Shown here: positions 25,020-39,110 of the stretch, piece by piece
Layout of the letters: the number at the start of each line of letters is the position of its first letter
How positions within the stretch are numbered: position 1 is the first letter of the stretch
Notes under the pieces: model-generated
Databases searched by the model: none
Told to the model about the DNA's origin: nothing
The model's input: the letters and a program-made list of their open reading frames with translations, nothing else
Program-made: the position numbers and the translations under genes
NCBI RefSeq assembly: GCF_001307765.1
Contig: NZ_LKBA01000024.1
Span: forward strand, 124,001 to 188,000
From: Aliiroseovarius crassostreae
GTDB lineage: Bacteria > Pseudomonadota > Alphaproteobacteria > Rhodobacterales > Rhodobacteraceae
Length of the DNA: 64,000 bases
Reading direction: 5' to 3'

Positions 25020-25179
25020 AGCGTTTCGAGATTAACTTGAGACACAAGTTGATTTCGAAACGCCCGCAACATCAGTAGGTTTCGAGCGTTTCGCCTCAGT
25101 ATTGTGTCTCAATAATAAGTCGAAACACTTTAAGGCAAGGCCGTTTCCCCTGCCTCAGGTCAGGTCCAAAACGCTTTAG
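25018..25179. repeat. Cluster of small GTTTCGA-type repeat units after the dehalogenase gene
   Basis: The first unit (25021-25063) folds into a long hairpin, GCGTTTCGA ... TCGAAACGC with an inner AACTTG/CAAGTT stem, loop AGACA. A second unit AAGTCGAAACACTTTAA (25117-25133) matches 24293-24309 with one mismatch. A third (25154-25179, CTCAGGT then AAACGCTTTAG) matches 24284-24309 in 19 of 26 bases and encodes the last codons of the GGDEF-EAL gene. Confidence 0.75.
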
Positions 25180-28100
25180 CCTTCGCCTTTGCAACACGGG
25201 TCACCCGCTCACCCTCTCGGCTGTTCAGCAGATCCTTCAACGGCACGGGATGCTCAAACAGATAGCCCTGACCAAAATCAGCGCCAATCTGTGCCAGAAA
25301 GGCGCATTGGTTTTCTGTTTCGATCCCTTCAGCGACAACTTGCACATTAAGGCGATGGGCCATTTCGACCATTGATCGACACAGGGTTTCGGCCGTGTTG
25401 TTCCCGGACAGATCCCGTACGAAGGCCTGGTCAATCTTGAGATAGTCGATCTTGTATTTGAGGAAATGGAAAAGCGAGGAATACCCCTTGCCAAAATCAT
25501 CCAGCGCAAGCTGGAAACCTGCCCGCTGCAGGGTGTCCAGCTTGTCCACCAACGGGCCTTGCGTTTCCAGCAAAGCGTTTTCGGTGATCTCGATGATGAA
25601 CCCATCCCCCCTCTGTCCACTTTCCTCCAGCCTTTGCAGCCAGCTCTGGAAACCCTTCACGGAAGAGATCAACTGCAGCGGGGAAACATTGATGCTGATC
25701 TGAAACGCGGGCCCAAAGCAGCGACGCAATAATGGCAAAGCTTCGCAGCATTGCTCAAACACCAGTTCCCCCAGCCGGTCGATCAATCCCGCTTCTTCGG
25801 CCAGCGGTATGAACTGCGCAGGCGGCACCTGTCCAAGTGAGTCGCTGTGCCATCTCAACAGGGCTTCCGCCTTGCAGGTCTTTCCGGTTTTCAAATCAAT
25901 GATCGGCTGAAAATGGACATCCATCTGCTTGTTGCGCACCGCCTTTTGCAATGCGGACACAAGGTTCATCTTTTCCACTACCGCACGGCGCATTTCGGAG
26001 CTGAAGGGAACCGCCCGGTTCCGTCCACCAGACTTGGCAACATACATCGCCTGATCCGCGGCCGAGATCAGATCTTCTGCGGTGACCGCATCCGTCGGAT
26101 AGCGCGCAATGCCCAGGCTACCGGTCAGATGCACCACGTCTTTCTCAATCCCGAACGGGATCGCAACCTCTTCGAGCAAGGTTTCGACAATTTGCGCCTG
26201 CTCGGCGATGTGGTTTTGATCAAGCACCACAATGAACTCATCCCCTCCATAGCGCGCAATTGTCACCCCCTGCGCCAAACAGTTGCGCAGCCGGTCGGAA
26301 ACGCGCTTCAACACCTGATCCCCGGCCGCATGACCCAACCGGTCATTGACCTGCTTCAACCCGTCGAGATCCAAGAACAGGAGCGCAATTTCCTTGCGGC
26401 CCGCGCTGGCGGCCCGGATCACATCCTCAAGATATTCGCCCAGCGCCGCACGGTTCAGCAGGCCGGTCAACACATCGATATGCGCCTGCTTCCAAATCGT
26501 TTCATTTGCCTTCTTCTGAGCGGTCATGTCTCGCACCAGAATGACATAGCGATAAGGGGAATTCGTCTTGTCGAAAATGGCGTTGATCGTCAACCAGACC
26601 GGAATGGATCGCCCGGCACGACACAGGATCTGCACCTCACCCCCCCAACCTTTTCCCCCGACCCTGGCACGAGCAAACCCATTGCGCAGCTTGCGCCGCA
26701 TCGGGGCGGGCAAGAGTGACCGTAAATTGCGGCCAATCAGGGCCTTGTCATCCTGCCCAACCAGCCTTGTCAATGCCGGGTTGGTTGTCAGAATATGGTG
26801 CGCGGCATCGGTAACAATCATGCCTTCCGAGCTGCTTTCATACACCATTGCGGCAAGGCGCATTGCCTCCTCTGCATTGCGCCGATTGGTAATATTGCGC
26901 ATGATGAGGATGGTTTCCCGCCCCCCGTGAACAGGACAGGCGCGTGCCTCGAAATGGCGTGCCTCTCCGTTGATATCCAGGCTGTAATCCCAACTGACCA
27001 TATCCTGGCTTTGCTGGTGCCTTTCGATGTTTTCCCGAAACTTCTGTGCTGCCTCCGACGGTAGAAGATCCTTCATATTCCGGCCCAGAAACTCCTCTGG
27101 CGGAAACAGGAGGTCATCATGTTCCCGGGCCCTGCAATCCAGCACCACGTAATTCCGATCCAGACGGAAATAAAGATCAGGCAGGGCATCCAGAACGGCT
27201 TCAAGCTGTTCCTGACGCATGTGTTCCGCCTTCTCTGCCGCAAGACGCCCCCCTTTTGCCTTTGCAAATTCCGCACTCAGAAAGCCAAACTCCTCCACAT
27301 TGGCAGAGCGCGAGGTGCGAGGGGACCACACCGCGTCATTCTCGACTTCCTGTTTCAGGCCCCGCGGCGGGGGTAATATTGCCCGCTGCGTCACGTACCT
27401 GACCAGCCAAAGAAAGCCCCCACCAAAGCCCAAAAACAGGGCCAGACTGAGGAACGCCCGCCAGTTGGCAGCGGCAAGTGCTGCATCAATTGGCAGCCCT
27501 ACACCCACATACAGCACGGCCCCCGCATCATCCTCAAACACGCGTTCATGACGAAACAGGCGGCGCAGACCATCAGGCCCTGCGACAATGCCATTCTTCT
27601 CGGTCCCGCTCTGCCCCTGCCCCACCTCGGGCGGCAGTTGGGCTTGCCCCAATACCTCCCCGCGTCGGGGCGCAAGGGCCACAACGCGTTGCGCCTCCTC
27701 AACCACATAGGAAATAACACCCTTCGGCGCGGTCAGCTGATCGAGCTGCTGCGCCCATCGCTTCGGTGATGCCACCGCAACCACCACGCCAGCAACGGGC
27801 CCATCCGCCCCGTCCGGCTGGATCGGGTGCGCAAAGGTCATGTCTGGCAATCCCGCCGCCCGCTCCCCTCGCATCATGGACACCGAGAAACGGCGCTGGT
27901 CCCGGGCCTGACGAAAATAGGGCCGATCCTGCACATTGACAGCACGGGGCAGCGCAGTGGCATTGCATAAAAGCTCCCCATCCGCGCGCGCCACCGCAAG
28001 GTTGACATAGGTCGGGTTCAGATCAACCACCTCAGCAAGGAATGCTGAGCATTGCTGGGCATCCTGCACCTGTGGGGAGCGCGCCAGCCGCATCAGAAAC

Positions 28101-28285
28101 TGCCGCGCTTCATCCATGAACTGCTTTTGCTCCAACGCCAATGCGCCAGCAGTCCGCTCTGCCTCTTCACCAATCCCGATCAGGACCTCTCGACGTTCAA
28201 AAAAGGCCTGCAGAACAACCAGAACCACCGTGGGCAAAGCCAACAGCAACAGAACGGATCTGAGGCGGGCATGGAGCGTTTTCAT
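25160..28285 (-). CDS. Membrane-bound CACHE-PAS-GGDEF-EAL cyclic-di-GMP signalling protein
   Basis: A 1041-residue protein. Order: transmembrane segment (about 8-26), periplasmic double-CACHE-type sensor (about 30-280), second transmembrane segment (about 285-305), PAS with a segment near VVLDCRAREHDDLLFPPEE, second PAS with its PAC motif, GGDEF domain (about 600-765; RYGGDEFIVVLD intact), and EAL domain (about 785-1025; AEALLRW, SINVSPLQL, EITENALLE, LDDFGKGYSS, LKIDQAFVRD, VAEGIETENQ all present). Both cyclase and phosphodiesterase centres look intact. No RxxD inhibitory site is seen just before GGDEF. The last codons (AFWT) are read from a copy of the neighbouring repeat. The start lacks a strong ribosome site. 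Confidence 0.92.
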   Translation of the reverse strand: MKTLHARLRSVLLLLALPTVVLVVLQAFFERREVLIGIGEEAERTAGALALEQKQFMDEARQFLMRLARSPQVQDAQQCSAFLAEVVDLNPTYVNLAVARADGELLCNATALPRAVNVQDRPYFRQARDQRRFSVSMMRGERAAGLPDMTFAHPIQPDGADGPVAGVVVAVASPKRWAQQLDQLTAPKGVISYVVEEAQRVVALAPRRGEVLGQAQLPPEVGQGQSGTEKNGIVAGPDGLRRLFRHERVFEDDAGAVLYVGVGLPIDAALAAANWRAFLSLALFLGFGGGFLWLVRYVTQRAILPPPRGLKQEVENDAVWSPRTSRSANVEEFGFLSAEFAKAKGGRLAAEKAEHMRQEQLEAVLDALPDLYFRLDRNYVVLDCRAREHDDLLFPPEEFLGRNMKDLLPSEAAQKFRENIERHQQSQDMVSWDYSLDINGEARHFEARACPVHGGRETILIMRNITNRRNAEEAMRLAAMVYESSSEGMIVTDAAHHILTTNPALTRLVGQDDKALIGRNLRSLLPAPMRRKLRNGFARARVGGKGWGGEVQILCRAGRSIPVWLTINAIFDKTNSPYRYVILVRDMTAQKKANETIWKQAHIDVLTGLLNRAALGEYLEDVIRAASAGRKEIALLFLDLDGLKQVNDRLGHAAGDQVLKRVSDRLRNCLAQGVTIARYGGDEFIVVLDQNHIAEQAQIVETLLEEVAIPFGIEKDVVHLTGSLGIARYPTDAVTAEDLISAADQAMYVAKSGGRNRAVPFSSEMRRAVVEKMNLVSALQKAVRNKQMDVHFQPIIDLKTGKTCKAEALLRWHSDSLGQVPPAQFIPLAEEAGLIDRLGELVFEQCCEALPLLRRCFGPAFQISINVSPLQLISSVKGFQSWLQRLEESGQRGDGFIIEITENALLETQGPLVDKLDTLQRAGFQLALDDFGKGYSSLFHFLKYKIDYLKIDQAFVRDLSGNNTAETLCRSMVEMAHRLNVQVVAEGIETENQCAFLAQIGADFGQGYLFEHPVPLKDLLNSREGERVTRVAKAKAKAFWT

Positions 28286-29167: not shown

Positions 29168-29181
29168 TTGACAAATGTCAA
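29168..29181. promoter_or_regulatory. FNR/DNR/NnrR-type box upstream of nirS
   Basis: TTGACAAATGTCAA, a perfect inverted repeat TTGAC-N4-GTCAA, centred about 69 bp before the nirS start. Crp/FNR-family regulators that answer to low oxygen or NO bind this consensus in denitrifiers, activating nir genes. Confidence 0.85.
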
Positions 29182-29243
29182 GACTCACCAAGGCCCCACC
29201 GCCCATCTTTCCCCCAGCCTTACCAAGCAAACGGAGAGTGATC

Positions 29244-30917
29244 ATGTCACTTGGAATCACCAACAAAACACGCCACACGCTAGGGATCGGTTTCGCAATC
29301 CTGCTCGGCAGCGTCGCTCTGCCGGCTGTTGCCGAAGGTCCGACCCTGAGCGAGGAAGCATTTGAAGCTTCGAAACAACTCTACTTTGAACGTTGCGCCG
29401 GTTGTCACGGCGTTCTGCGCAAAGGCGCCACCGGTAAAAGCCTTGAGCCGGTTGTGAAGAAAAAGAACGCCGACGGCACCGAGACCATCAGCGGCACGCT
29501 GAAACTGGGTCAGGAGCGCCTGGAGAAAATCATCTCTTGGGGAACCGAAGGCGGCATGAACAACTTCTCGGACATCATGTCTGAGCAGGAAATCAAGGAC
29601 ATGGCGACCTACATCCAGATGGATCCGCCGAAGCCGCCAGAAATGTCGCTTGCTCAGATGAAACAGACCCGCAAGGTCTATGTCGAAGAGGCTGACTACC
29701 CGACCGAGCCGCTGCACGGCCGCAACTGGGAAAACTTCTTCGTTGTCATCGAGCGTGACGTAGGCACGGTGGCCGTGATCGACGGCGACACCAAAGAAGT
29801 TCTGGCACACATCCCGACCGGTTATGCTGTGCACGTGATGAAAGCCTCTGAGCACCACAAGCTGGAAGAGCCGGAAAACCCGGGCCGTTTCTGGTACACC
29901 ATGGGCCGCGATGGCAAGATGACCAAGATCGACCTCTGGCAGACGCCGGACAAGATGCTGGTTTCGGAAGTCAAGATCGCATACGACGCACGTGACGTGG
30001 CAGTTTCCGGCGACGGTAAATACGTGATCGGTGGCGCTTACTGGCCTCCGCACTTCGCCATCGTTGATGCCATGACCATGGAACCGCTGAAAGTTGTTTC
30101 GACCCGCGGTGTGAACGTTGACGGTGACTATGTGGAAGAAGCCCGCGTGGCAGCCATCTACACCACCCCCAACGAACCAACCTGGATCGTTGCCGTGAAA
30201 GAGCTGGGCCAGCTGTGGCAAGTTGACTACTCGGACCTGGACAACCTGCGCATCGACAAGATCGACTCAGCCAAGTTCCTGCACGACGGCTTCTTCGATC
30301 CAACAGGTCGTTACTTCCAGATCGCTGCGAACGCATCGAACAAAATGGTTGTTGTCGACACCAAAGAGCGCAAGCTTGAGGCCATGATCGACGTTGCTGC
30401 CCTGCCGCACCCCGGCCCGGGCGCCAACTGGAACGACCCGAACTGCGGCCCGGTGGCTGCGACCACCCACCTCGGCGCAGGTACTGTGACCGTCTGGGGC
30501 AACGACCCCAAAGGCACCCCGGACAAAGCTTGGAAAACCTGTTACGAGGTTGAAACCGACGGCCCGGGCCTGTTCGTCCGGACGCACCCGAACTCGGATT
30601 ACATCTGGGCTGACCAGACCAAAACTCCGGATCTCGAAGTGCAGCAATCGGTTCAGGTCATCTCGAAAGAGACTGGTGAGATCGTGAAAACGATCCAGAT
30701 TACCGAAGAAGAAGGCAACGTTGCTGTTCACTTCGAATTCAACAAGGACGGCACCGAAGTGTGGGTTTCGAAATGGAACCGCGCAACTTCAAAAGAGCCG
30801 AATGGCGAAATGGTCATCTATGACGCCAAAACTCTGGAAGAGATCGGTCGCGTGAAAGGGCTGTATGCTCCGACCGGTAAGTTCAACGTCTACAACCGTT
30901 CGAACCACGTGACCTAA
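29244..30917 (+). CDS. nirS: Cytochrome cd1 nitrite reductase
   Basis: A 557-residue periplasmic enzyme reducing nitrite to nitric oxide, the defining step of denitrification. The signal peptide ends near Ala30 (LPAVA-EG). The N-terminal heme c domain has CAGCH at 51-55. The eight-bladed d1 propeller shows the d1 heme ligand region GYAVHVMKAS (His197) and the two active-site His residues in FLHDGFFD (His347) and LPHPGPGANW (His389). ATG at 29244 was chosen because it gives the signal peptide and follows GGAGAG; an earlier in-frame ATG at 29175 lies inside the FNR box. The gene is followed by a strong terminator, so it is probably expressed at a higher level than the rest of the cluster. Confidence 0.98.
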   Translation: MSLGITNKTRHTLGIGFAILLGSVALPAVAEGPTLSEEAFEASKQLYFERCAGCHGVLRKGATGKSLEPVVKKKNADGTETISGTLKLGQERLEKIISWGTEGGMNNFSDIMSEQEIKDMATYIQMDPPKPPEMSLAQMKQTRKVYVEEADYPTEPLHGRNWENFFVVIERDVGTVAVIDGDTKEVLAHIPTGYAVHVMKASEHHKLEEPENPGRFWYTMGRDGKMTKIDLWQTPDKMLVSEVKIAYDARDVAVSGDGKYVIGGAYWPPHFAIVDAMTMEPLKVVSTRGVNVDGDYVEEARVAAIYTTPNEPTWIVAVKELGQLWQVDYSDLDNLRIDKIDSAKFLHDGFFDPTGRYFQIAANASNKMVVVDTKERKLEAMIDVAALPHPGPGANWNDPNCGPVAATTHLGAGTVTVWGNDPKGTPDKAWKTCYEVETDGPGLFVRTHPNSDYIWADQTKTPDLEVQQSVQVISKETGEIVKTIQITEEEGNVAVHFEFNKDGTEVWVSKWNRATSKEPNGEMVIYDAKTLEEIGRVKGLYAPTGKFNVYNRSNHVT

Positions 30918-30949
30918 GTCAAGACATCGCCCCCATGGGCGAGCCGATA

Positions 30950-30982
30950 AAGGGGCGGGCACCACGCCCGCCCCTTTTTTTT
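30950..30982 (+). terminator. Strong terminator after nirS
   Basis: Stem AAGGGGCGGGC / GCCCGCCCCTT, loop ACCAC-like, followed by an uninterrupted T run. It makes nirS a largely separate transcript with some read-through into the next gene. Confidence 0.93.
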
Positions 30983-31034: not shown

Positions 31035-32834
31035 ATGACCCAGACCAACGGTGCTGAACCGAAAAAGCCAATTTGGCGACGCTATTTCCTTTGGGGAATG
31101 CCCGTTGCCGGAATCGCCGGTGTCTTTGTCGCCGGGATCATCTTCTGGGGTGGTTTCAACACCGCCATGGAAGCAACCAACACCATGCCATTCTGCATCT
31201 CGTGCCACGAGATGGAGGATTACGTTTATGAAGAATACAAAGGCACGATCCACGATGTGAACCGATCGGGCGTCGGCGCGGTCTGTTCCGACTGTCACGT
31301 GCCAAAAGACTGGACCCACAAGATCATCCGCAAGATCAAAGCCTCGAAAGAGGTTTGGGGCAAGCTGACCGGCACAATCTCGACCCCCGAGAAGTTTGAT
31401 GCCAAACGCCTGCATCTGGCGATGAACGAATGGGAGCGGATGAAGGCCACCGACTCGCGCGAATGCCGCAACTGTCACGATTTCGAATCGATGATGCCGG
31501 AATTCCAGCGGCCGCGGGCACGCCAACAGCACTTGAACGCCATGTCCACGGGTCAAACCTGTATCGACTGCCACAAGGGCATCGCACACAGGAACATTCG
31601 TGACCGGGCCGAAGATGAATATCTCGAAGTTCTCGAGGCTCCGAACCCGGATTTCATCCGTGAAATTCCGAAGGAGTATATGGAGAGCCTTGCACGGGTG
31701 GAAGCCAAGGAAGCCGCCGAAGCAGAAGCAGCAAAGGCCGCGAAAGCAGCCGAACAAGAGGCCTTGCAGGCGCGAATCGCTGCGGCGGTTGATGCAGCAG
31801 TGGCTGAAGAGCGCGCGCTGGCGGCAGGGGAAGCCCCGGCAGCAGTTAGCGGTGGCGCAGATGTGGCCCCCGGCATTGACTGGGCCGCTGTCCCTTCGAC
31901 CGACCTAACCCTGTTCTATCCTGGCCAAGCCTCGTTTGAATGGGTGCAGAACGGTAAACAGCACGGCGGCGCACGCCCGCTGACCCAGGGTGGCGACCAA
32001 TGCACCACCTGCCACGCTAAAGAACTTGACGCGATCGGCGGCAAGATCGTCGCTGGCGGTGGCGGCAAGCAAGATGAGCTGGAACCGACCCCGATCCCGG
32101 GCAAGCCGGGTACCATCAGCGCAACCTTGAAAGCGGCCCATGATGCGGACAACATGTATATCCAACTCAGCTGGGCAGATACAGGTCACAACCCCGCCCC
32201 CTTCGTGGATGGTGGCAAAATGGACCCGGAAAATCAGGTCAAAGTGGCAATGATGATCTCTGGTGACAGTGTCGAAATGGGCAACCAGGTCGGCTGTTGG
32301 GCCACCTGCCACGCAGACAACACCTACATGCCGTTTGATCCGGGCGCAGATGCGATTGCCGCCAATGATACGGTGGCCGCTCAGCTGCAAGCTCAGGGGT
32401 CGATCACCAAATATCTGTCGCAAACCCGCACCAAGATCGAGATCAAGGGGCGTCGCGGCAAGGCACAAGGTGGCTGGGACCAGCTGAAGTCGCCGGAAGA
32501 GATCGAGCAGATGCTGGCAGATGGAACCTTTATGGACCTGATGCGCGTCTATGCCGACGGCTCTGCCTCAAACGGCTATCTTCTGGACCGCCGGGTGCAA
32601 AATGGCGGTGAGATCACCGCCTCTGCCAACCTGTCCGGCGGTATGTGGACCGTCACCTTCGCCCGTCCGCTGGCCGGTGCCGTAGGCGACGTGGCTCTGG
32701 AAGCAGGCAAAACCTACACGGTTGGCTTTGCCATCCATGACGACTTTGCCGCAGCGCGCTTCCACCATGTCACGCTGAACACCACCATGGCCCTGGACAA
32801 CGCAGACGCCCAGATCAACGTGGCTGGACAATAA
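31035..32834 (+). CDS. NapC/NirT-type tetraheme cytochrome fused to an ethylbenzene-dehydrogenase-type heme-binding domain
   Basis: A 599-residue membrane-anchored multiheme protein. A transmembrane helix (about 18-40) precedes a NapC/NirT domain with four heme c motifs: CISCH 54-58, CSDCH 84-88, CRNCH 144-148 and CIDCH 176-180. An Ala/Glu-rich helical linker (about 222-270) leads to a second domain with CTTCH 323-327 and CWATCH 421-426. That domain resembles the EB_dh heme-binding family (segments such as [14 protein letters not shown] and a C-terminal [19 protein letters not shown]). The N-terminal module should take electrons from quinol and pass them toward periplasmic nitrite reductase; classical NirT is only about 200 residues. 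The start at 31035 follows GGAG at seven bases. A terminator follows the gene. Confidence 0.88.
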
Positions 32835-32873: not shown

Positions 32874-32905
32874 CGGGCCTCGCATCACGCGGGGCCCGTT
32901 TTGTT
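32874..32905 (+). terminator. Terminator after the NirT-like fusion gene
   Basis: A stem of about ten pairs, CGGGCCTCGC / GCGGGGCCCG with one G-T wobble, loop ATCA, followed by TTTTGTTT. Confidence 0.85.
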
Positions 32906-33028: not shown

Positions 33029-33457
33029 ATGATGCAGATGACGAAATCCCTACCGATCCTATTGCTGACCTGTCTGGCCGCGGCCCCGACCTGGGCCAAG
33101 GAAAAGGACATGACAAAGATCTGCGGCGAAGCCGAAGAGCGATACGTCGAACTGTTTGGCCATCCTTCTTCCGAAGAAGAAGGGGTGACGGTTGTGAAGA
33201 TGTATAAATACAGCTTCTGCCCGGTTGACCTGACTGTGCCGCTCGGAACCACCGTGCGCTGGGTCAATGTGGACAAACGCACCAGCCATTCGGTGATCGT
33301 GAAAGGCTCCGGCGAACCGGAAAGCGACCGCGCCTTTCCAGAAGAGTTCCTTGAATTCACCTTCCTGACCGACGGCCCGCAGGAGATTCTTTGCGGCCCC
33401 CATTGGGAAACCCGGGACATGATTGGCCGCATCACCGTTGACACATCCGGCAATTGA
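33029..33457 (+). CDS. Secreted cupredoxin (plastocyanin/azurin-like type 1 copper protein)
   Basis: A 142-residue protein with a signal peptide (LPILLLTCLAAAPTWA, cleavage near residue 23). The mature part has the cupredoxin core and a type-1 copper ligand set: His87 in TSHSVIV, then Cys122, His125 and Met131 in ILCGPHWETRDMIG. Two further Cys (32 and 64) may form a disulfide. Its position between the NirT-like gene and nirE suggests it shuttles electrons to cytochrome cd1, as pseudoazurin does in other denitrifiers; that role is inference. A nearby ATG (33032) is an equally good start with respect to GGAGA. Confidence 0.85.
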   Translation: MMQMTKSLPILLLTCLAAAPTWAKEKDMTKICGEAEERYVELFGHPSSEEEGVTVVKMYKYSFCPVDLTVPLGTTVRWVNVDKRTSHSVIVKGSGEPESDRAFPEEFLEFTFLTDGPQEILCGPHWETRDMIGRITVDTSGN

Positions 33458-33690: not shown

Positions 33691-34452
33691 ATGACGGGTA
33701 AAGTATATCTCATCGGCGCGGGGCCCGGCGACCCGGAGCTAATGACAATGAAGGCCGTGCGCCTGCTGCAAGAGGCGGATGTCGTGGTCTATGACCGGCT
33801 GGTCTCAGACGAAATCATCGCCATGTCTCCGAAACAGGCCAAGATGATTTTCGTTGGAAAATCTGCCCATAATCACCCGGTGCCCCAAGACGAAATCAAC
33901 GCCATTCTCGTGCGTGAGGCCAAGGCGGGCAACAAGGTGGCCCGGATCAAAGGCGGCGACCCGCTGATCTTCGGGCGCGGGTCTGAAGAGGCGGCAGACC
34001 TGGCCGCTGAGGGTGTGGAATGCGAATATGTTCCGGGGATCACCGCAGCGCAGGGCGCCGCATCTATTTCCGGCGTGCCGCTGACCCATCGCGATCTGGC
34101 GACGGGTGTGCAATATGTTACGGGCCACCGCGCCCGCGATGAAAAACTCGACCTGGACTGGAAACGTCTGGCCGATCCGATGACCACGCTGGTGGTCTAT
34201 ATGGGCGTGGCCAATATTGGTCAGATCGCCGTTGGTCTCATGACCGAAGGGCTGGATCCCGCCACCCCGGTTTTTGCGATTTCCCGCGCCACCACACCTG
34301 ATGAACGCCGCATGGTATCCACGCTGAACCGGGTGGCACAGGATGCCCGTGACGCCGGCCTGAAGCCCCCTACCCTGTTCATCATCGGGCGCGTGGTCTC
34401 ACTTTATCAATCCGAACAGGTGGAGCCCGAAGGGATCTCTGCCAATGGCTAA
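33691..34452 (+). CDS. nirE: Uroporphyrinogen-III C-methyltransferase (heme d1 branch)
   Basis: A 253-residue S-adenosylmethionine-dependent methyltransferase that makes precorrin-2 from uroporphyrinogen III, the entry into heme d1 synthesis. Landmarks of the family are GAGPGDPEL (9-17), VVVYDRLVS, KGGDPLIFGRGSEE, the loop YVPGITAAQGAA and PLTHRDLA. Length fits stand-alone NirE/CobA. The start at 33691 gives the normal family N-terminus MTGKVYLIG; an upstream in-frame ATG at 33631 would add 20 residues. It overlaps nirC. Confidence 0.95.
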   Translation: MTGKVYLIGAGPGDPELMTMKAVRLLQEADVVVYDRLVSDEIIAMSPKQAKMIFVGKSAHNHPVPQDEINAILVREAKAGNKVARIKGGDPLIFGRGSEEAADLAAEGVECEYVPGITAAQGAASISGVPLTHRDLATGVQYVTGHRARDEKLDLDWKRLADPMTTLVVYMGVANIGQIAVGLMTEGLDPATPVFAISRATTPDERRMVSTLNRVAQDARDAGLKPPTLFIIGRVVSLYQSEQVEPEGISANG

Positions 34453-34801
34453 TGCGCTGCCCCCTCTCTCCCTACTGCCCGCAATGGCGATTGCGGCATT
34501 GGCAGCGCTTACCCCCCCGGTCGCATTGGCTGGCAGTGCCGGTGCGGATCGGGGGCTGAATACCGAAGAGCTGAAGCGCCTGGTGCACCAGGACTGCGGG
34601 TCCTGTCACGGGCTGACGCTCAAAGGGGGGCTTGGCCCCGATATCCGTCCGGAAAACCTCACCCATTACGACCCGGACATTCTGGAAATGCTGATCCTTG
34701 ACGGGATCCCGGACACGGCGATGCCGCCATGGCGCCCCCTCATCACCCAAGAGGAAGCCCAGTGGATCGCCCTTTACCTTTTAAACGGAGACGCGCAATG
34801 A
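34445..34801 (+). CDS. nirC: Small periplasmic cytochrome c (NirC / cytochrome c55x type)
   Basis: A 118-residue monoheme cytochrome. A signal peptide covers about 1-29 (AIAALAALTPPVALA). CGSCH at 51-55 binds heme, with the likely distal Met93 in TAMPPW. The start overlaps the end of nirE by eight bases, and the stop overlaps the start of nirF (ATGA). NirC-type cytochromes accept electrons in the last steps of d1 maturation or donate to NirS. Confidence 0.92.
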   Translation: MANALPPLSLLPAMAIAALAALTPPVALAGSAGADRGLNTEELKRLVHQDCGSCHGLTLKGGLGPDIRPENLTHYDPDILEMLILDGIPDTAMPPWRPLITQEEAQWIALYLLNGDAQ

Positions 34802-35964
34802 AACCGTTCCGCACCGCGCTCGCACTTTCGCTTTTGATGACCACCACGGCGCTGGCCGAAACCAGGACCATCGCCACCGGCGATCTGGGGCTGGTGATCG
34901 AGCGCGCCAAGGGGTCGGTGGTTCTGGTCGATCAGTCCGACCGCGCCGCCCTTGCCCGGATCGAAGGGCTGGGCGACCTCAGCCACGCATCAATGGTGTA
35001 TTCGCCTGATGAGCGTTATGCCTATGTGTTTGGACGTGACGGGGGTCTGACCAAGGTCGATATCGTCGAGCGCAAAGTGGCCAACCGCGTTGTTCAGGGG
35101 GGCAATTCGATCGGCGGCGCCATCTCTGACGATGGTAAGCTCGTAGCGGTGTCAAACTATGAACCCGGCGGCGTGAAGATCTTTGACGCGGACACGCTGG
35201 ACCTCGTTGCCGATATTCCCACCGGGTCGAAAACCATTGGCCTTGTGGATGCGCCGGGTCGCCGCTTCGTCTTTACCATGTGGGACACCGGGGAGACCTG
35301 GATTGCCGATATGTCGGCCGTGGCCACGGGGGGCGAAGTCCAGATCACCAAGATCCCCGATATGGGCAAAAACCCCTATGATGCACTGATCACTGCCAAT
35401 GGCCGCACCTATATCACCGGATTGTTTGGGGAGGACGGGCTGACTGCGCTGGACCTTTGGGATGAGACACCCGAACCGATCCGGGTCTTGCCAAATTATG
35501 GCCGCGGACAAGAAGAAATGCCCGTCTATAAAATGCCCCACCTGGAAGGCTGGGCGCATACCGGCGCCGAGTTTGTGCTGCCTGCTGTGGGCCACCACGA
35601 GGTTCTTTGGGTCGATGCAAACACGCTTGAAGAAACTGCGCGCACCAAAACCTATGGCCAGCCTGTGTTCGCGATGGCGCGCCCCGATGGACGGCAGGTT
35701 TGGGTGAACTTTGCCCACCCGCTGAATGACACGATCCAGGTGATCGACAGCGTCTCGAAAGAGGTCATTCACGAATTCAAACCCGGCCCCGCCGTGCTGC
35801 ATATGGAATTCACCCCGCGCGGTAATGAAATCTGGATCTCGGTGCGCGATGAGAACAAGGTCAAGATCTACGACACGCGCACGTTTGAGCTGTTGCGCGA
35901 AATTGAAGCCGACAGCCCCTCAGGCATTTTCTTTACCGCCCGCGCCCACCGCACGGGGCTGTGA
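34798..35964 (+). CDS. nirF: Heme d1 biosynthesis protein NirF
   Basis: A 388-residue periplasmic beta-propeller related to the d1 domain of NirS but without a heme c motif. Signal peptide about 1-20 (ALALSLLMTTTALA). It contains NirS-like repeats such as DGKLVAVSNYEPGGVKIFD, GLVDAPGRRFVFTMWDTGETW and RGNEIWISVRDENKVKIYD. NirF is an essential late maturation factor acting on dihydro-heme d1. ATG at 34798 was preferred over 34729, which would lie inside nirC and give no signal peptide. Confidence 0.95.
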   Translation: MKPFRTALALSLLMTTTALAETRTIATGDLGLVIERAKGSVVLVDQSDRAALARIEGLGDLSHASMVYSPDERYAYVFGRDGGLTKVDIVERKVANRVVQGGNSIGGAISDDGKLVAVSNYEPGGVKIFDADTLDLVADIPTGSKTIGLVDAPGRRFVFTMWDTGETWIADMSAVATGGEVQITKIPDMGKNPYDALITANGRTYITGLFGEDGLTALDLWDETPEPIRVLPNYGRGQEEMPVYKMPHLEGWAHTGAEFVLPAVGHHEVLWVDANTLEETARTKTYGQPVFAMARPDGRQVWVNFAHPLNDTIQVIDSVSKEVIHEFKPGPAVLHMEFTPRGNEIWISVRDENKVKIYDTRTFELLREIEADSPSGIFFTARAHRTGL

Positions 35965-35967
35965 CCC

Positions 35968-36963
35968 GTGGACCATTTTGATGACATTGACCGCGCCCTC
36001 TTGGACGGGTGGCAACGGGAGTTTCCCCTCTCGCACCGCCCGTTTCAGACCATTGGCAGCGCGTTGGGCATTGGCGAAGATACCGTTATGAGCCGATATG
36101 CACGCCTGCTTGATGACGGGCAGATCAGCCGGATCGGGGCCACCTGCGCACCCAACACTGTTTCGGCCTCGACACTTGCCGCCGTGGCAGCACCCGAAGA
36201 CCAGATCGAAGAGATCGCCGCCCTGATCAATGAAGAAGACGGCGTGAATCACTCCTATCTGCGCGAAGATACCTGGAACATCTGGTTTGTCATGACCGGC
36301 CCGGATCGCACAGATGTGGACGCGGCACTGGAGCGGATCAGTGAACGCACCGGGCTGCGGGTGCTTGACCTGCGGCTGGTGCGCCCGTTCAACATCGACC
36401 TTGGCTTCAAACTGACCGGCAAGGGCGAGGCCATGCCGCCCGCCCGCAAGGTGGACCGCTCTGTTTTGACAGAAGGCGACCGGCCGATCATGGCGGCGCT
36501 GTCCTCGGGTATGCCCCTCTCTGCGACCCCCTATATCGACCTTGCCACCGAACTGGACCGGGACGAAGAGGATCTTCTTGCGCGCATCCGCATCCTGCAA
36601 GACGCCCGGCTTATCTCACGCCTGGGAGTGATCGTGCGCCACCGCAAGCTGGGCTGGTCCTCAAACGCAATGGTGGTCTGGGATGTGGACGCAGATCAGA
36701 TCGGGACCATCGGCCCCAAACTGGCGGCACAAAAAGGCGTGACGCTCTGCTATGAGCGCCGCCCGGTGGCGGACGTCTGGCCCTGGCGCCTTTACACCAT
36801 GTTCCACGCAAAATCCCGCGAAGTGGCGCTGGAAAATATTGAAAGGGCGGCCAGCCTGCCCGAGCTTTCCGGCACAGACCGCAAGGTGCTCTTTTCCACC
36901 CGCTGCTTCAAACAGAAAGGGGCGCTGATCGACCGTGCCCGCAATACGGAGGTCCCCGCATGA
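35968..36963 (+). CDS. nirDL: Fused siroheme decarboxylase subunit NirDL
   Basis: A 331-residue fusion of two Lrp/AsnC-like halves. Residues about 1-155 match NirD/AhbA, with HSYLREDTWNIWFVM and TGLRVLDLRLVRPFNIDLGF. Residues about 165-331 match NirL/AhbB, with LCYERRPVADVWPWRLYTMFHAKS. These proteins decarboxylate the C12 and C18 acetates of siroheme to didecarboxysiroheme, working with NirG and NirH. Each half begins with a helix-turn-helix-like segment that in this family serves structure rather than DNA binding. It starts with GTG three bases after the nirF stop, and its end overlaps nirG by ATGA. Confidence 0.95.
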   Translation: MDHFDDIDRALLDGWQREFPLSHRPFQTIGSALGIGEDTVMSRYARLLDDGQISRIGATCAPNTVSASTLAAVAAPEDQIEEIAALINEEDGVNHSYLREDTWNIWFVMTGPDRTDVDAALERISERTGLRVLDLRLVRPFNIDLGFKLTGKGEAMPPARKVDRSVLTEGDRPIMAALSSGMPLSATPYIDLATELDRDEEDLLARIRILQDARLISRLGVIVRHRKLGWSSNAMVVWDVDADQIGTIGPKLAAQKGVTLCYERRPVADVWPWRLYTMFHAKSREVALENIERAASLPELSGTDRKVLFSTRCFKQKGALIDRARNTEVPA

Positions 36964-37409
36964 CTTTGGACCAGATTGACCGCCAGATCATCAACGCACT
37001 GCAAGATGACCTGCCCATGACCCACCGCCCGTTTCAGCCGCTGGCTGAAAAGCTGGGCATCACCGAGGCCGAGCTTCTGGACCGGATCCGCACCATGAAA
37101 GATGCCGGTGTTCTGACCCGCTTTGGCCCGTTCTTTGATGCCGCCGCCATGGGGGGGGCCTTCTGCCTTTGCGCCATGGCCGTGCCCGAGGACAAATTTG
37201 AAGCGGTCCTAACAAAGGTCAATGCACATCCCGAGGTGGCGCATAATTATGAACGCAAGCATTCGCTGAACATGTGGTTTGTTCTGGCCTGCGAAACGCC
37301 GGAAGGCATCGGCCAGATCGCGGATGTGATCGAAGGGGAAACCGGGCTGACGGTCCACCAATTCCCCAAACTGCAGGAATTCTACATTGGCTTTCGGGTG
37401 GCGGCATGA
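36960..37409 (+). CDS. nirG: Siroheme decarboxylase subunit NirG
   Basis: A 149-residue Lrp/AsnC-type protein of the NirD/NirG (AhbA-like) kind. It shows the motifs HNYERKHSLNMWFVLAC and TGLTVHQFPKLQEFYIGF, the equivalents of the NirD active-site face. Both ends overlap neighbours (ATGA with nirDL and nirH), so expression is coupled and stoichiometric. Confidence 0.93.
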   Translation: MTLDQIDRQIINALQDDLPMTHRPFQPLAEKLGITEAELLDRIRTMKDAGVLTRFGPFFDAAAMGGAFCLCAMAVPEDKFEAVLTKVNAHPEVAHNYERKHSLNMWFVLACETPEGIGQIADVIEGETGLTVHQFPKLQEFYIGFRVAA

Positions 37410-37891
37410 CTATCGACACAACAGACCGCAAGATCATTGAGGTAACCCAGTCGGGTCTGCCGCTCTCGCCCACGCCCTATGCTGACCTGGGGGCCATCCT
37501 TGGACTTGGCGAAGACGAAATCATGCAGCGGATCACCGCGATGAAGGACAGCGGCGTGATCCGTCGCATTGCCGCGGCCCCCAATCACTACAAGCTGGGG
37601 ATGACCGCAAACGGGATGAGCGTCTGGGACGTGGCCGATGATCAACTGACTAAGCTGGGGCAGAAAATTGGCGCGCTTCCTTACGTGACCCATTGCTATG
37701 AACGCCCCCGGGCGCTGCCCGACTGGCCCTATAACCTGTTTGCCATGATCCATGGGGAAACCGCAGGCGAAGTGGAAGAGAAACGCGCCGAAATCACCAG
37801 CATTCTGGGCGACGCGCTGCGCGGCAAAGACATTCTCTATTCCACCCGCATTTTGAAAAAGACGGGGCTTCGGCTTCGTAAGAAAGGGTGA
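37406..37891 (+). CDS. nirH: Siroheme decarboxylase subunit NirH
   Basis: A 161-residue Lrp/AsnC-type protein of the NirL/NirH (AhbB-like) kind. Landmarks are [19 protein letters not shown] and [23 protein letters not shown]. It partners NirG and NirDL in siroheme decarboxylation. The start was set at the ATG overlapping the nirG stop; a longer in-frame start at 37274 would lie wholly inside nirG. Confidence 0.93.
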
Positions 37892-37895
37892 GCCA

Positions 37896-39110
37896 ATGTT
37901 CCGCCTGACCGAATATATGAACCAACTTGTCAATCCGACCCCAGTGCGCCAGCGCCGCGGATCGGGAATGGTAAAACCGGTGGTGATCTGGAACCTGACC
38001 CGCCGGTGTAACCTGCGGTGTCGTCACTGCTATACCGTGTCGGCGGATGTGAATTTCCCCGGCGAGCTTGATGAAGCGCAGGCCATGAACGTGCTGGACG
38101 ACCTGGGGGATTTCAAGGTCCCTGCGCTGATCCTTTCAGGCGGCGAGCCTCTCGACAGCCCCTATCTGTTCCCACTGGCGAAAGCCGCGCGGGACAAGGT
38201 GCGTGTGCTGGCGCTGTCGACAAACGGCACCAAGATTTTTGGCGAAACCGCCGACAAGGTGGCCGAAATCGGCTTTGACTATGTGGGCATTTCCATCGAC
38301 GGGATCGGCGAGACAAATGACTGGTTCCGCGGCGTGAACGGCGCCTATGATGCCGCCGTGCGCGGTGTGCGCGAGCTGAAGAAGCGCGGCGTGAAGGTGG
38401 GGCTGCGCTTTTGCCTGACCGAAGGCACCCAGCACCACCTGCCGGATCTGCTGAAGCTTTGTGACGACGAAGGCGTGGACAAGTTTTACCTCTCGCACCT
38501 GGTTTACGCCGGGCGGGGCGACAAGCACCGTGGCGAAGATGCGCATCACCAGATGACCCGCAAAGGGCTGGACATGCTGCTGGAACGCGCCTGGCAGGCT
38601 GTGTCAGAAGACAAGCCGCTGGACATCGTAACCGGCAATAATGACGCCGATGCGGGCTATTTCCTGCAATGGGCGGAGGAGCGATTTGACGCCGACAAGG
38701 TGGCCAATCTGCGCGAACACCTGACCGCCTGGGGGGGGAACTCCTCTGGTCTGGGCGTCGCCAATATCGACTATCTGGGATATGTGCACCCCGACACCTA
38801 CTGGTCCGATTACACCATTGGGAATGTGAAGAAGAAGAAGTTTTCCGAATGGTGGACCAGCGATGACCAGATGCTGGCCACATTGCGCACCCGCCCGCGT
38901 CCGCTCAAGGGACGTTGCGGCGCGTGCAAGATCAAGGACATCTGCGGCGGCAACACCCGCATTCGCGCCCTGCAGGTGACCGGTGACCCCTGGGCCGAGG
39001 ACCCCGCCTGTTACCTTACAAATGACGAGATCGGCGTGGCCGATGCCGAACGTCTTGAAACCACTCCGTTCCGAGGAAAGAGCAATGACCCGAAACATCA
39101 GTTCTTTTAA
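37896..39110 (+). CDS. nirJ: Radical SAM heme d1 biosynthesis enzyme NirJ
   Basis: A 404-residue radical SAM protein with the cluster motif CNLRCRHC (Cys38, 42, 45) and a C-terminal SPASM-like Cys set ([12 protein letters not shown] ... DPAC). [10 protein letters not shown] is the SAM-binding GGE motif. NirJ removes propionate chains from didecarboxysiroheme to install the keto groups of d1. Four bases separate it from nirH, and its end overlaps nirN by 26 bases. Confidence 0.96.

Follow-up and report, generated by a model that had tools for sequence, protein, structure and literature searches.

A gene lying directly after nirS in Aliiroseovarius crassostreae encodes a protein far larger than the nitrite reductase partner expected there, and raises the question of what its second half is and where its electrons would go. 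We address this here for the window, by which we mean the whole 64,000-nucleotide stretch of DNA analysed, and for related loci in other genomes. The initial annotation had described a NirT-like tetraheme module followed by an EB_dh-type domain with two further c-heme motifs, in a nirS cluster, and family searches with Pfam confirm this description.

Architecture of the fused gene and its surroundings

The features of the gene and cluster are as follows, all on the forward strand.

29244..30917, +, nirS, cytochrome cd1 nitrite reductase (Pfam Cytochrom_D1, E 7.2e-118, and Cytochrom_C, E 2e-9)
30949..30977, +, GC-rich hairpin and T run between nirS and the fusion (hairpin scan)
31035..32834, +, fused NirT-NirB gene, 599 aa (ORF reading; ATG at 31035, stop ending at 32834)
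31083..31154, +, putative hydrophobic N-terminal anchor, about residues 17-40 (read from the sequence alone)
31113..31595, +, NapC/NirT domain, residues 27-187 (PF03264)
31194..31208, +, heme motif 1, CISCH, C54 (motif reading)
31284..31298, +, heme motif 2, CSDCH, C84 (motif reading)
31464..31478, +, heme motif 3, CRNCH, C144 (motif reading)
31560..31574, +, heme motif 4, CIDCH, C176 (motif reading)
31596..31880, +, linker, residues 188-282, its second half Ala/Glu-rich (gap between the two Pfam matches)
31881..32771, +, EB_dh domain, residues 283-579, read as NirB (PF09459)
32001..32015, +, heme motif 5, CTTCH, residue 323 (motif reading, alignment)
32295..32312, +, heme motif 6, CWATCH (CX3CH), residue 421 (motif reading, alignment)
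32874..32898, +, terminator-like hairpin 3' of the fusion (hairpin scan)
33032..33457, +, plastocyanin-like cupredoxin (phmmer to plastocyanin 1bxu, E 6.6e-7)
33691..34452, +, cobA/nirE, uroporphyrinogen-III C-methyltransferase (TIGR01469, above cut-off)
34445..34801, +, nirC-like monoheme cytochrome (weak cytochrome c matches below cut-off; named by position)
34798..35964, +, nirF-like protein (relatives are cytochrome D1 domain-containing; named by position)
35968..39110, +, nirDL, nirG, nirH and nirJ-like heme d1 genes (ORFs; named by position)

The longest ORF of the fused gene starts 18 residues upstream of the chosen ATG, and residue numbers have been corrected by 18; the nirS start codon was likewise picked by reading, its full ORF being 29175-30917. 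The first domain matches Cytochrom_NNT at residues 27-187 (E 1.4e-70, 237 bits compared to a gathering score of 24.1), and its four CxxCH motifs downstream of the predicted anchor form the NapC/NirT family pattern, while the cut-off of the NCBIfam NapC/NirT subfamily model TIGR02161 is missed (265.4 versus 310.6 bits), a result that we count against the main electron route proposed below. The second domain matches EB_dh (E 3.9e-28, 99.5 bits compared to a gathering score of 33.3), as the initial annotation had anticipated, and this match rules out a plain NirT tail or a low-complexity region. The Ala/Glu-rich linker that had also been described is present, and a full-length model of low confidence draws a putative helix at 213-263. 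The corresponding linker of an Azospirillum protein is Pro/Ala-rich, and the start-to-start spacing from motif 4 to motif 5 ranges from 106 to 161 residues across fused relatives; a variable-length tether fits both linker types. AlphaFold2 gave a mean pLDDT of 47.5 and pTM of 0.37 for the full protein (39 rows), and 46.2 and 0.51 for the NirB domain alone (45 rows), values too poor for use of either model at the heme sites.

The cupredoxin matches no Pfam family at E 0.001, and its NCBIfam plastocyanin and halocyanin matches lie under their cut-offs; relatives are annotated as plastocyanin/azurin family or copper-binding proteins. Relatives of the nirDL, nirG, nirH and nirJ-like ORFs are annotated as AsnC family regulators and NirJ. 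On the other side of nirS, at 25160-28285 on the reverse strand, a 1041-aa protein reads as a PAS/GGDEF/EAL signalling protein. The host genome has a single EB_dh match and encodes a second NapC/NirT-family protein elsewhere, so that the fused copy is probably not the host's general NapC. A phage origin of the fused gene was considered and set aside, there being no match in the phage collection.

Of the position directly after nirS and the terminator of its own, both proposed initially, the first is borne out, and for the second there is the terminator-like hairpin at 32874-32898, a counterpart of which occurs 3' of nirTB in 64 of 88 relatives. Between nirS and nirTB, a GC-rich hairpin with T run is found in 82 of 88 intergenic stretches of relatives; dinucleotide shuffling, done three times, left 2, 1, and 4 of 88. 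The relatives are mostly close kin, and the cases are not independent. The hairpin scan as a whole shows no excess (10 sites versus a shuffle mean of 8.6). The nirS-nirTB hairpin may terminate or attenuate transcription, thereby lowering nirTB compared to nirS. Both GGGCGGGC and GCCCGCCC are present in 70 of the 88 nirS-nirTB stretches.

Identity of the second domain

Among the relatives, two loci carry the same units unfused after nirS. L130 has the order nirS, nirT, EB_dh diheme gene, and L131 the order nirS, nirT (202 aa), EB_dh diheme gene (336 aa), a c551-like frame (assigned by reading), nirC, nirF and heme d1 genes; both EB_dh proteins exceed the Pfam cut-off. The L131 order agrees with the nirSTBM region in the title of Jungst et al. 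1991, as listed by PMC13086519, and with the nirMCFDLGH order that PMC13086519 itself gives. According to the portion of PMC13086519 consulted, tetraheme NirT and diheme NirB likewise follow nirS directly in the nirSTBM cluster of Stutzerimonas (Pseudomonas) stutzeri; there the two are separate proteins, whereas the window has one polypeptide and then a cupredoxin gene, the likeness being drawn without sequence alignment. In a nirS cluster, a unit with two c-type motifs comes after NirT as part of the same protein here and as a separate protein in L130 and L131. In P. stutzeri RCH2, Psest_0817, at the nirB position, is annotated “Ethylbenzene dehydrogenase”, and its chromate fitness value of −1.5 stands beside −1.6 for NirS (Psest_0815) and −1.5 for NirF (Psest_0821) in the portion of PMC5554334 consulted; counting against the parallel, Psest_0816, at the nirT position, is absent from Table 1 of that portion, which gives chromate effects of −1 or lower. 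Taken together, its position, this one entry in a table, and the domain match make NirB, the diheme cytochrome encoded in nirSTB clusters, the best reading of the EB_dh domain.

The initial annotation was right to see a fusion in the nirS cluster; it missed the NirB identity, and hence that two known partners are joined. A fused NirTB is already in print: the consulted portion of PMC13086519, citing Li et al. 2018, mentions one from Halomonas sp. 2A and describes it as NirT and NirB in one protein, the description being our basis for likening it to the window's protein, which adds another example of this known arrangement. The electron chain NirT to NirB to NirS has also been stated before, in the portion of PMC8954225 consulted. 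The Marinobacter paper PMC6152468 does not mention nirT or nirB, and our literature word search found no paper pairing nirT and nirS with Roseobacter.

Exactly six heme motifs occur in all 90 sequences of one fused set, the last always CX3CH; L100 and L143 are the same gene, which leaves 89 different ones, the majority closely related to the window's. Because every sequence keeps exactly six, the pattern is more than chance. Motif 6 is CWASCH in 48, CWATCH in 30, CWSSCH in 7, CWVTCH in 2, CWGTCH in 2, and CWSTCH in 1. In an alignment of NirB-type domains (43 fused, 9 split, and 10 long), the CX3CH cysteines and histidine never vary. CxxCH and CX3CH are the sole motifs of the split, nirS-linked EB_dh proteins of L130 and L131, and NirB is a diheme c-type cytochrome according to the papers, so CX3CH would have to bind the second heme; this supports, rather than proves, covalent heme at the predicted site. 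H568 and H577 are invariant in the fused, split, and long groups, while H310 is invariant in the fused group, present in 78% of the split group and absent from the long group, yet invariant in alignment A4. Our guess from this conservation is that H310, H568, and H577 could be distal heme ligands.

Known multiheme proteins resemble one half of the fusion or the other. The NapC/NrfH quinol dehydrogenases share the NapC/NirT domain with four CxxCH motifs, but are without the diheme EB_dh tail; among solved structures, the full protein matched one chain, that of NrfH (2j7a_C, E 0.0023). TorC-type pentaheme cytochromes likewise have a NapC-like domain and a C-terminal extension, which in TorC bears heme. 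The match to TIGR02162 (TorC) reaches 236 bits compared to a cut-off of 478 and stops at residue 231, and the window's extension, unlike that of TorC, is EB_dh-type with two motifs.

Distribution, linkage, and variants of the fusion

Among the matches listed, the closest named matches to the window's NirB domain are from Aliiroseovarius, and 13 of 21 genomes within the genus have a strong match. With a threshold of E 0.001, matches were found in 20 of 398 genomes sampled from the phylum, in 18 of 289 from the window's class, and in 35 of 274 from the class to which genome G083 belongs; many of these matches are partial and weak. The two class samples yielded 35 stretches, with 20 complete fused genes, 4 genes cut by contig ends (L211, L215, L218, and L237), and 11 unfused EB_dh genes, and nirS was not recognised on these last 11 stretches. 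In scanning genome contigs with the C-terminal domain, the best 80 of 332 relatives were kept, so fused counts lean to the window's kin. The gene is plasmid-borne in three Ruegeria strains (the copy of strain AD91A being known from a database listing), one Aliiroseovarius, and one Azospirillum brasilense, and for this reason looks accessory. Among the matches listed for the full-length protein, all five plasmid records call it “NapC/NirT family cytochrome c”, an annotation that hides the NirB half.

Linkage to nirS is nearly constant. Across 109 fused loci, nirS lies upstream in 107, a cupredoxin gene downstream in 104, and both in 102. The two without nirS, L209 and L029, are on contigs that begin 355 and 735 bases before the gene; the cupredoxin was not recognised in five of the 109 (L207, L208, L137, L030, and L220). 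In the 90-sequence set, nirS precedes 88 of the 89 distinct genes, the exception being L029 at its contig end. The 24 entries scored as not fused, which include L211, L215, L218, and L237 with their missing ends, comprise two with nirS and no cupredoxin (L130 and L131), 21 with neither, and one, the contig-end-cut L211, with a cupredoxin and no nirS. Directly upstream of the fused nirTB of L219 (4005-7462) is a tandem pair of nirS-like genes.

Three loci extend the arrangement to an octaheme NirT-NirB-NirB protein, with eight motifs in one ORF after nirS:

L206:7345-10314, octaheme ORF of 989 aa
L207:7196-9961, octaheme ORF of 921 aa
L208:1181-3940, −, octaheme ORF of 919 aa

Within one ORF, the two NirB copies share 77% identity in L207 and 73% in L208, and the contig-end-cut L211 and L215 hold parts of two consecutive NirB domains. 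In the tree, the L206 copies pair together, whereas the first copies of L207 and L208 pair with each other, as do their second copies; two separate NirB duplications therefore probably took place.

The two domains give different histories for the fusion. In the NirB-domain tree, which uses 13 hand-picked loci of 84 (L001-L004 and L006-L085) and omits L211, L215, L236, and L237 as incomplete at their ends, the 43 fused rows form one group (98/94); L218, included as fused by hand labelling, has its N-terminus cut by the contig end and one motif before the domain. In the NirT-domain tree, which omits L218, the fused rows do not form one group: there are three label changes, at least two of them forced by well-supported branches, and fused rows L228-L231 are placed among unfused rows. 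Since the trees disagree, we do not claim a single fusion event; one fusion with later NirT replacement, or several fusions, are both possible.

A pair of NapC/NirT and EB_dh genes on the reverse strand of L141 (5944-10201) adjoins an aldehyde oxidase-type molybdopterin-binding protein.

Proposed electron route to NirS and its alternatives

We consider it likely that NirTB carries quinol electrons to NirS, either directly or via the cupredoxin, as a dedicated branch beside the bc1 complex. Ubiquinol would be oxidised by the membrane-anchored NirT part on the periplasmic side of the membrane; hemes 1-4 would relay the electrons to the NirB pair (CxxCH and CX3CH) on the variable tether, and NirB would hand them to NirS or to the adjoining cupredoxin as its probable partner. 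We infer the direction of this flow. Joining NirT to NirB would mainly fix that one transfer step. The initial proposal that the fusion could replace a soluble carrier finds no support, since a cupredoxin gene nearly always follows the fused gene, making replacement unlikely. NirTB is thus put forward as a concrete candidate for electron supply to cytochrome cd1 in nirS denitrifiers that have a cluster cupredoxin.

Electrons may also reach NirS without NirTB, because the genome encodes a cytochrome c1 and the cluster a cupredoxin. NirTB could accordingly serve mainly as an activator of NirS, its electrons converting the as-made cytochrome cd1 while turnover is fed by bc1 via the cupredoxin. 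Reductive activation of cytochrome cd1 by NapC (Zajicek et al. 2004 as cited in the consulted portion of PMC13086519) and the presence of both carriers favor this role, and low expression of nirTB compared to nirS would suit the conserved hairpin 3' of nirS. However, activation has no obvious need for two extra hemes or for the octaheme extension, and the requirement of NirT for nitrite reduction in strain ZoBell, according to the same portion, is compatible with either role; we regard activation as the main function as unlikely.

The route may run differently in relatives of the pair. Unfused NapC/NirT and EB_dh diheme pairs adjoin flavoprotein genes of flavocytochrome c sulfide dehydrogenase (FCSD) in two loci:

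L129:7573-9277, unfused pair beside the FCSD flavoprotein gene and SoxY
L132:8793-10492, −, unfused pair beside the FCSD flavoprotein gene

Such pairs may connect sulfide oxidation with the quinone pool, and flow there could be reversed; we count them against the main route. They are the evidence for a module that runs in reverse, or both ways, from a periplasmic donor to the quinone pool, which for the fused protein we judge very improbable: the FCSD-linked pairs are unfused and sit on a separate branch of the NirB tree, whereas the fused gene is accompanied by nirS in almost every locus. Our word search of the literature found no paper joining flavocytochrome c, NapC, and ethylbenzene dehydrogenase.

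The ethylbenzene dehydrogenase gamma subunit (2ivf_C) and nitrite oxidoreductase subunit C (7b04_C) are likewise EB_dh-type and are subunits of molybdoenzymes; EbdC holds heme b. Profile A4 matches them over the whole sequence at E 1.5e-5 and 2.8e-6, respectively, the best single stretches being weaker (5e-4 and 4e-3), and it is mostly the C-terminal part that aligns. That the window's EB_dh part holds heme b and serves a molybdoenzyme, as these matches and the Pfam family might invite, is hardly credible given two c-type motifs invariant in 62 of 62 aligned NirB-type domains and the lack of a molybdoenzyme among the neighbours identified by family searches of part of the window's genes. The two motifs, one of them CX3CH, set the domain apart from 2ivf_C and 7b04_C and suggest heme c instead of heme b.

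Returning to the quinol-to-NirS route, we tentatively extend it to a broader picture, in which nirS, fused nirTB, and the cupredoxin gene would make up a conserved unit of three genes, dedicated to a bc1-bypassing quinol-to-nitrite branch, in many proteobacteria, extendable to an octaheme NirT-NirB-NirB wire, with an unfused relative serving sulfide-oxidising flavocytochrome c. If so, NirT and NirB would be a general two-way connector of the quinone pool to periplasmic redox enzymes. More immediately, the little-studied NirB is linked to EB_dh proteins and to a CX3CH motif that does not vary, and since nirTB has been linked to nitrite accumulation in Stutzerimonas (in the portion of PMC13086519 consulted), the presence of the fused form in a genome may be of help in predicting such accumulation.

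Beyond these genes lies a separate clade of longer EB_dh diheme proteins (438-483 aa) with CxxCH and CX3CH, some adjoining a NapC-like gene; nirS was not recognised near them:

L138:8586-10025, L140:6400-7839, and L134:7877-9328, longer EB_dh clade; also L221-L223, L226, and L232-L234

Finally, on the reverse strand of L133 (5872-9857), an EB_dh diheme protein with motifs CLECH and CWAVCH adjoins a ten-motif cytochrome and an MtrB/PioB-type outer-membrane barrel, a gene group that looks as if it were part of an extracellular electron transfer system.
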